This document shows, piece by piece, positions 27,453 through 62,044 of a stretch of 64,000 nucleotides of DNA; position 1 is the stretch's first letter; each line of letters opens with the position of its first letter. The stretch is from Akkermansiaceae bacterium (GTDB lineage Bacteria; Verrucomicrobiota; Verrucomicrobiia; Verrucomicrobiales; Akkermansiaceae): positions 1 to 64,000 of the forward strand of contig JAPKDA010000001.1 of the NCBI GenBank assembly GCA_028822695.1. Reading direction: 5' to 3'. The translations under genes were made by a program, and so were the position numbers. Below the pieces are notes generated by a model, which was given only the letters and a program-made list of their open reading frames with translations, did not search any database and was not told where the DNA came from.

Positions 27453-28016
27453 ATGAGACGAACACTGATGGCCCTATTGGGCGGCGCGCTGTTTGCGCTC
27501 CCTGCGTCGGCACTTGAGAGGCGTGTCTTCACGAGTGCAGATGGCAGTAAAACCTTTGAAGGGGTTTTGACGGACTATGACGCCAAAGCGCAAACGATTA
27601 AGATCAGCAAGAAGGGCAGCGGTGTCCTGAGCTTCAAGATGGCGCTTCTGAGTGAAGAGGATCATACCTACATCAAGGAGGAAGGACCTGCGCTTGCTGC
27701 AGCGAAGGCGATCCGGCTCGATCTGGATGTCTACAAGGATAAGCCAATCACCAATCGATCGAGGATCTCACGGACCGTGACGACTCCTGCAGGCTACGAA
27801 ATCGAATTGCGGAACTGGACGAAGAACGATGTGGAGGATGTTGAAATCCGCTACACGATCTTCCATCGGAAGGATGCCGAGAACGGTCCTGGTTCCATCG
27901 GGCAGACGAAGGGTTCGATGTTCATTTCCACTGTATTTGCAAACTCCAACGACATGAACCGGACCGATCCGATCAATCTCGTGCGCTATTCCCGGAAAAA
28001 GTCGGGTGGTGGATGA
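27453..28016 (+). CDS. Secreted protein with SLA1-like N-terminus, ending at an in-frame TGA
   Basis: ATG 27453 gives a signal peptide (LMALLGGALFALPASA), then RRVFTSADGSKTFEGVLTDY, an SH3-like motif (SHD1/SLA1 homology) common in PVC exported proteins. A beta-rich region follows (YEIELRNWTKNDVEDVEIRY). The frame meets TGA at 28014-28016 after ...RKKSGGG. It does not stop being protein-like there: see the next entry. Codon use is C-ending and balanced like dnaK, unlike its + strand neighbours. A homologous signature (RTVEGEYVEMEGEKVTV) is seen at the start of the PQQ protein at 60584. Confidence 0.8.
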   Translation: MRRTLMALLGGALFALPASALERRVFTSADGSKTFEGVLTDYDAKAQTIKISKKGSGVLSFKMALLSEEDHTYIKEEGPALAAAKAIRLDLDVYKDKPITNRSRISRTVTTPAGYEIELRNWTKNDVEDVEIRYTIFHRKDAENGPGSIGQTKGSMFISTVFANSNDMNRTDPINLVRYSRKKSGGG

Positions 28017-28151
28017 GGAGGCGGCCCATGCAAACCCGGCGGTCGCCGGGTTGACGGACTCATTGGAATCGTTGCTGAAGTTGTGATCGACGGCAAAGTT
28101 GTCGAGACGGTTGCCACTGATGACAAGCTCATTGAGCAGGTGAAGGGCTGA
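28014..28151 (+). other. In-frame continuation beyond the TGA (44 codons)
   Basis: Reading on in the same frame gives GGGPCKPGGRRVDGLIGI, VAEVVIDGKVVETVATD and DKLIEQVKG, then TGA 28149-28151. Codon use matches the upstream part. A perfect 8-bp hairpin (AACCCGGC-GGTC-GCCGGGTT, 28033-28052) starts 16 nt after the TGA. The factor-independent terminator lies about 30 nt after the second stop, not after the first. The full gene is therefore likely to be 27453-28151 with one TGA codon. Confidence 0.7.
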
Positions 28152-60583: not shown

Positions 60584-62044
60584 ATGAATATGAGAGGGTA
60601 TCGTTTTTTGAATCGGATGGCGGTGGGTCTGACTCTGTTGGTTTCGTGTGGTGTGTCTGAAGCACGGTCGTGGACGGATGCGAAGACGGGGAGAACGGTG
60701 GAGGGTGAGTATGTGGAGATGGAGGGTGAGAAGGTGACGGTGCGGCAGAAAAATGGGCGGGTGCTGAAGTTGCCGTTGGGCTTGCTTGCGGAGGCTGATC
60801 AGGAGTTTGTGAAGAGCCAGGGCGGCGGGGTGGCTGCCGGAGGGGGGGAGGCGGATTGGCCGACGTTCCGTGGGGCGGATCGGAGGGATCATTCGCCGGA
60901 CAAGGGTTTGTTGAAGAAGTGGCCGGAGGGTGGGCCGAAGTTGTTGTGGACCTCGAAGGTGGGAGGGAAAGGTTATAGCGGTCCGTCCATCGCGGGAGGG
61001 AAGATGTATTTGTCGGGAACCCGACGGGGGAAGGCGCAGATTTATTGTCTCGATGCAGCGAGGGGAGATGAAGTGTGGAGTGCGGACATCGGGGACGATG
61101 CTGGAGAGGGATACAACGCGGGTTGGGGAGGTGGGCCACGGGGGACGCCGACCTTGGATGACGGGTTGCTGTATGCGATCAGTGCGAACGGAGATTTGGC
61201 CTGTGTGGATGCCTCGGACGGATCGAAGAAGTGGTCGAAGAATTTGGTGGATGACTTTGGGGGGAAGGTTCCGAACTGGGGCTATTCGGAATCACCGCTC
61301 GTGGATGGCGACAAGTTGATCGTGACTCCCGGGGGTAAGGGTGGGGCGATTGTGGCGCTGGACAAGAAGAGTGGGCGGACGCTTTGGCGGAGCAAGGGGC
61401 TGGAGGACGCCGCGCAGTATGCTTCGGTGATCATCGCGGTGGTGAAGGGAAAGAAGCAGTATGTGCAGTTGTTTATGAAGAACCTCGCGGGAGTGGATGC
61501 AGAGAGCGGGGATTTGATTTGGAAGTCACCATGGAAGGGCGGCCGGACGGCGGTGATTCCGACGCCGATTTATCATGACGGGCATGTCTACATGTGTTCG
61601 GGATACGGAGCGGGGAGTAAGTTGGTGAAGATCGATGGGGATGAGGCGGAGGACGTGTGGGTCAACAAGGTGATGAAGAATCATCATGGTGGGGTGGTGT
61701 TGGTAGACGGTTATCTCTACGGATTTTCGGATGCGGGAGGGCTGACTTGCCAGGAGTGGAAGGGCGGGGAGAAGAAGTGGGGTGAGAAGGGTGAGGGGAA
61801 GAGCAAGGGGGCGGTGCACTACGCGGATGGGATGCTCTACTGCCTCGACGAGTCGGAAGGCTCGGTGTTTTTGGTAGAGGCGACGCCGGATGGTTTCAAC
61901 GAGAGGGGGCGGTTTTCAATGCCGGAGGTGACGAAGTTGCGGGAGGGGACGAAGGGGAAGGTTTGGACGCACCCGGTGGTGATTGGAGGGAAGTTGTACC
62001 TGCGGGATCAGGATTTGGTGTTTTGTTTTGACGTGAAGGGGTGA
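60584..62044 (+). CDS. Secreted PQQ-like beta-propeller with N-terminal SHD1-like domain
   Basis: The product is 486 aa from ATG 60584 (60590 also possible). A signal peptide (GLTLLVSCGVSEA) is followed by an SH3-like SHD1 segment (SWTDAKTGRTVEGEYVEMEG, LPLGLLAEADQEFV), then ADWPTFRGADRRDHSPDKGL opening a PQQ-like propeller. Blades are visible as CLDAARGDEVWSADIG, CVDASDGSKKWSKNL, ALDKKSGRTLWRSKG and GVDAESGDLIWKSPW. It is a second, longer member of the class at 52389; the extra domain is also seen in the TGA-interrupted gene at 27453. A binding or sensing role at the surface is inferred. Confidence 0.92.
   Translation: MNMRGYRFLNRMAVGLTLLVSCGVSEARSWTDAKTGRTVEGEYVEMEGEKVTVRQKNGRVLKLPLGLLAEADQEFVKSQGGGVAAGGGEADWPTFRGADRRDHSPDKGLLKKWPEGGPKLLWTSKVGGKGYSGPSIAGGKMYLSGTRRGKAQIYCLDAARGDEVWSADIGDDAGEGYNAGWGGGPRGTPTLDDGLLYAISANGDLACVDASDGSKKWSKNLVDDFGGKVPNWGYSESPLVDGDKLIVTPGGKGGAIVALDKKSGRTLWRSKGLEDAAQYASVIIAVVKGKKQYVQLFMKNLAGVDAESGDLIWKSPWKGGRTAVIPTPIYHDGHVYMCSGYGAGSKLVKIDGDEAEDVWVNKVMKNHHGGVVLVDGYLYGFSDAGGLTCQEWKGGEKKWGEKGEGKSKGAVHYADGMLYCLDESEGSVFLVEATPDGFNERGRFSMPEVTKLREGTKGKVWTHPVVIGGKLYLRDQDLVFCFDVKG

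Follow-up and report, generated by a model that had tools for sequence, protein, structure and literature searches.

A probable exported selenoprotein family in an order of Verrucomicrobia, with selenocysteine in the glycine-rich loop of a beta domain

Introduction

Selenoproteins are an already known kind of bacterial protein, with an inventory of 119 families and subfamilies in which selenocysteine (Sec) is decoded by SelB together with a bacterial SECIS (bSECIS) element (PMC13188914). The constraints described for this element are an apical loop of 3–9 nt, a stem of 4–16 bp, a G in the first two loop positions, and a distance of 16–37 nt from the UGA (PMC13188914). The gene at 27453–28151 of the window (the whole 64,000-nt stretch of DNA analysed here) resembles the inventoried selenoproteins (PMC13188914) in its in-frame UGA; in a hairpin 16–37 nt downstream, with G and then G or U opening a small apical loop; in the accompanying SelA, SelB and tRNA-Sec; and in having Cys homologues and a Cys near the Sec. 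With a probability of roughly 0.93, judged from sequence comparison, the gene encodes an exported selenoprotein in which UGA 28014 is decoded as Sec through SelB and a SECIS with a GGUC loop, a possibility raised in the first-pass annotation and now favoured by the conserved TGA, the hairpin, the sel genes and exchange with Cys. Literature searches returned neither a selenoprotein survey for this bacterial group nor work on SLA1 homology domains in Verrucomicrobia.

The locus and its parts

The frame 27453–28151 has a single interruption, TGA 28014–28016, up to which it encodes a 187-residue protein including a signal peptide; 44 further codons (28017–28148) follow in frame before TGA 28149–28151, exactly as the first-pass annotation had described. 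The terminator that it placed past the second stop survives as a hairpin with a T tail, although chance alone would supply about as many such sites. The features are as follows.

27453–28151, forward strand: putative selenoprotein gene, whole, with 232 codons ahead of the final stop (the second TGA) and Sec as codon 188; homologues align full-length across the TGA, with purifying selection on both sides
27453–27512, forward strand: predicted signal peptide MRRTLMALLGGALFALPASA, read directly from the sequence, with cleavage at about residue 20–21 judged by eye
27516–27720, forward strand: SHD1-like SH3-type barrel (about residues 22–90), from the AlphaFold2 model and the fold match to 2hbp
27720–28148, forward strand: predicted beta domain with the Sec in a Gly-rich loop (about residues 162–200) that interrupts it, from the structure model at modest confidence
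28014–28016, forward strand: in-frame TGA, probably Sec188; TGA conserved in 41 distinct genes, with tRNA-Sec, selB and selA in the genome
28029–28031, forward strand: candidate partner Cys193 (TGC) in the motif U-G-G-G-P-C; Cys or a second Sec lies within 10 residues in every distinct TGA gene
28033–28052, forward strand: candidate bacterial SECIS hairpin with an 8-bp stem and apical loop GGUC (28041–28044), fitting the bSECIS constraints (PMC13188914)
28176–28206, forward strand: terminator-like hairpin and then a T run, after the second stop; about 1.1 such sites are expected by chance in the scan

Homologues and constraint on the extension

In 17 of 58 related genomes a full-length homologue has a stop in the corresponding position, TGA in every case, and an order-wide search, tallied from its result table, placed a full-length homologue with the in-frame TGA in 47 of 318 genomes; TAA or TAG never occupied the position in the sequences read. 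The same TGA recurs in a separate collection, in assemblies named as Verrucomicrobia, Akkermansiaceae and Verrucomicrobiales, and the full-length TGA members listed by a class-wide search came from this order only. Clustering at 85% identity yields 41 distinct TGA genes. Past the TGA, the four closest sequences give dN values of 0.15–0.32 and dS values of 1.0–2.3, with constraint about as strong as before it; by this measure of substitution the 44-codon extension is under purifying selection. The N-terminus is hydrophobic in every homologue of alignment A1.

Variation on this plan includes a homologue with an additional N-terminal domain of about 140 residues ahead of the SHD1-like part (L009:949-2127, G009:C3), and more than one full-length paralogue in each of G544, G034 and G455, the Sec motif being present in some and absent in others.

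The hairpin downstream of the TGA

The perfect 8-bp hairpin with a GGTC loop reported in the first-pass annotation was recovered at 28033–28052 as AACCCGGC-GGTC-GCCGGGTT, with 24 nt between UGA 28014–28016 and the GGUC loop; loop, 8-bp stem and spacing all lie within the bSECIS limits. Taken alone, the window hairpin would not beat chance, its fold stability being no better than that of shuffles (z 0.04, single sequence); an Rfam search likewise gave only a chance-level match (E 0.77). What goes beyond chance, on comparison of the sequences, is the joint conservation of TGA, hairpin and extension coding across dozens of genomes.

A hairpin with a GGUC/AGUU/GGUU-type loop lies 17–25 nt past the TGA in 38 of the 41 distinct genes, set against background rates of 0.4% for all positions and 0.7% for TGA triplets. 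Three genes fall outside this pattern: L021 and L166 have loops that still include GU, and in L171 a GGUC hairpin is found further downstream. Stem pair 1 varies yet stays paired in 21 hairpins (C-G in 10, G-C in 10, A-U in 1); since these were preselected for at least five pairs, part of the pairing follows from that choice. The loop begins a codon in most genes and lies in another frame in L013 and its relatives, which argues that it is not a mere by-product of the protein motif. The apical loop of the E. coli fdhF SECIS likewise contains GGUC, the UGA spacing being a few nucleotides longer in the window gene.

In L171 (G544:C1) the GGUC hairpin is further from the TGA than in other members, with another G+C-rich hairpin in between that could bring the two closer.

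Selenocysteine machinery

The source genome carries selB (C56:476-2386), selA (C56:17988-19331) and, at a contig edge, tRNA-Sec with anticodon TCA (C175:2-92), so that the sel genes proposed as a check in the first-pass annotation were largely recovered; selD, however, was not found in this assembly, which is 94.7% complete in 226 contigs. In the first sample (58 genomes), selD scored over the cut-off in each of the other 27 genomes with selB. In G001, a genome of the same genus, a gene adjoins selD; no orthologue of it was found in the source assembly (best match 38%), which may therefore lack the region around selD. A location for selD beyond the end of the contig that carries tRNA-Sec was considered but not adopted: selD follows tRNA-Sec in G040, G043 and G047, and not in family members such as G008 and G009. 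SelD selenoproteins are already known, and selD in most selB-positive relatives (e.g. L076, L077) has its own in-frame TGA, which provides independent evidence for Sec use in those genomes.

In the first sample selB is present in 28 of 58 genomes, which include all 17 TGA genomes (p 1e-7), and among good-quality genomes (at least 90% complete, at most 5% contaminated) selB occurs in 31 of 31 TGA genomes vs 64 of 243 overall (p 1.2e-21). Both p values are inflated by shared ancestry, although the genomes come from several families in which selB status is mixed. Across the second sample (318 genomes) a selB match was found in 40 of the 47 TGA genomes, the other seven being 54–85% complete.

A neighbourhood comparison revealed no conserved gene context, except near selB in one genus (L150 and L151), where the selenoprotein gene adjoins or lies near selB: it begins 112 nt past selB on the same strand in G497 (L151, C340), and is separated from it by one ORF in G417 (L150, C39).

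Exchange with cysteine and the partner residue

In every one of the 41 distinct TGA genes the first Sec is accompanied, no more than 10 residues away, by a Cys or another Sec, in arrangements that include U-C, C-U, C-x4-U, U-x4-C and others, with very variable spacing between Sec and partner; two Sec are encoded in five of these genes. The homologue alignment suggested in the first-pass annotation finds TGA at this codon, or Cys in some lineages: TGA has been replaced by Cys in several lineages, and not by Gly. A Cys-Cys version occurs in a selB-positive genome (L017) and a Cys...Cys version in a genome with no selB match (L173), the latter being sister to L014 within a clade of Sec members that has good support; further genomes with no selB match carry a C-x6-C-x2-C loop (L174-L177) or no motif (L180).

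Two in-frame TGAs, 6–10 codons apart, are present in L014, L018, L160, L162, L165 and L167; in most of them the second TGA is followed by a SECIS-type hairpin whose loop is of the usual kind, the first TGA having no canonical hairpin.

Architecture and proposed function

The AlphaFold2 model is of modest confidence overall, with pLDDT 81–90 over most of the SHD1-like barrel and below 50 in the Sec loop; the best PDB fold match for the N-terminal barrel is a weak one to the SHD1 structure 2hbp (TM by target 0.70, E 0.14). The final two strands of the modelled beta domain and one helix are encoded past the TGA, so a product ended there would be predicted to lack them. Pfam gave no match to the window protein, SHD1 (PF03983) included, and weak SHD1 matches in 2 of 20 family members; no named enzyme domain emerged from Pfam and NCBIfam searches, and a PDB sequence search gave nothing credible. 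A thioredoxin fold with CxxC or UxxC was not seen, the model being all-beta with no Trx match and the partner spacing unfixed. Other proteins of the source genome share the SHD1-like N-terminal region with no TGA (window 60626–60841; G000:C161:21449-21676).

In the proposed mechanism, SelB with Sec-tRNA(UCA) would be recruited to UGA 28014 by the SECIS hairpin whose GGUC loop lies 24 nt past it, Sec would be inserted as residue 188, and translation would run on to the second TGA, completing the C-terminal beta domain. After export, the flexible Gly-rich loop could allow Sec188 to bridge Cys193 (in two-Sec relatives the bridge would be a diselenide), and this bridge might have a redox function in the envelope. 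From the export signal, the SHD1-like barrel, the beta domain and the low-confidence Gly-rich loop with its Sec pair, an envelope redox role appears the most likely function of the exported selenoprotein, and is probable rather than assured.

Alternative explanations

The first-pass annotation regarded a GGA-to-TGA mutation as the simplest story, and the Gly codons flanking TGA 28014–28016 are in keeping with a nonsense mutation, or a sequencing error, in one genome; the TGA is nevertheless conserved across independent assemblies, in 41 distinct genes, and the residue that replaces it in several lineages is Cys rather than Gly, leaving either event with a negligible probability. The combination of uniform Gly in homologues with no sel genes, which that annotation had named as contrary to Sec, is likewise not what was found, since homologues carry TGA or Cys and sel genes do occur. 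Programmed readthrough of the TGA, or its reassignment to an ordinary amino acid with no selenium, would by itself also explain the conserved downstream coding, but offers no account of the strict association with selB and tRNA-Sec, the SECIS-type hairpin or the exchange with Cys, and is very improbable, if slightly less so than mutation or error; a globally changed code was rejected because TGA also ends genes in the window, e.g. at 28149 and 25407. Decoding as Sec is supported by the conserved TGA, the conserved hairpin and purifying selection past the TGA, and by co-occurrence with selB and tRNA-Sec and Cys replacement in a genome with no selB; it is this comparative evidence, including the selB co-occurrence and the Cys...Cys member within the Sec clade, that makes nonsense mutation, sequencing error and plain readthrough very unlikely.

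A separate alternative leaves the decoding unchanged and concerns the role of the residue, with Sec acting as a metal or metalloid ligand and not as half of a redox bridge. Such roles have been discussed for other selenoproteins (PMC13188914), and the Cys-rich C-x6-C-x2-C loop of L174-L177, from the genomes with no selB match, would suit a ligand site, as would the very variable Sec-partner spacing; yet the loop of most members holds just two Cys/Sec, and no conserved metal-resistance neighbourhood is seen. Ligand function is the less likely of the two roles and the chief rival to the redox reading. The redox bridge between Sec and its partner is retained as the preferred function.

Significance and comparison with known systems

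No credible Pfam or NCBIfam model covers the family, and it fits none of the 119 families and subfamilies in the catalogue of prokaryotic selenoproteins (Table 1, PMC13188914; GOS_A has no model to compare); within Pfam, NCBIfam and that inventory, the selenoprotein family is apparently new. The fuller proposal, that this is an undescribed exported selenoprotein family, seen only in this Verrucomicrobia order, on a non-thioredoxin beta scaffold, and that it represents a new envelope redox module whose partner residue has moved repeatedly, is somewhat better than evenly favoured. A widespread family would be added to the selenoprotein list; each of its genes is cut short when stop codons are read in the standard way, and its two-Sec members would be natural diselenide candidates.

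Sec-free relatives of the same class (e.g. L088-L101) have in common with the family an SHD1-like N-terminus, a beta domain and a near-C-terminal D-K-L/I-x-G motif, whereas their loop has neither Sec nor a Cys pair (e.g. SGWRYINGGDEESKDKLEG in L095). The Sec may have originated in a loop from which Cys is absent in these distant relatives; if no ancestral Cys was present, this would depart from the usual Cys-to-Sec route, the direction being unproven. Compared with SHD1 (PF03983; PDB 2hbp), the modelled N-terminal barrel is alike, but the window Sec sits in the other domain. Compared with the inventoried selenoproteins (PMC13188914), the window architecture is unlisted and a thioredoxin-like fold is not seen; the Sec of the window family is placed instead in the Gly-rich loop of a beta domain, with an unfixed spacing to its partner.
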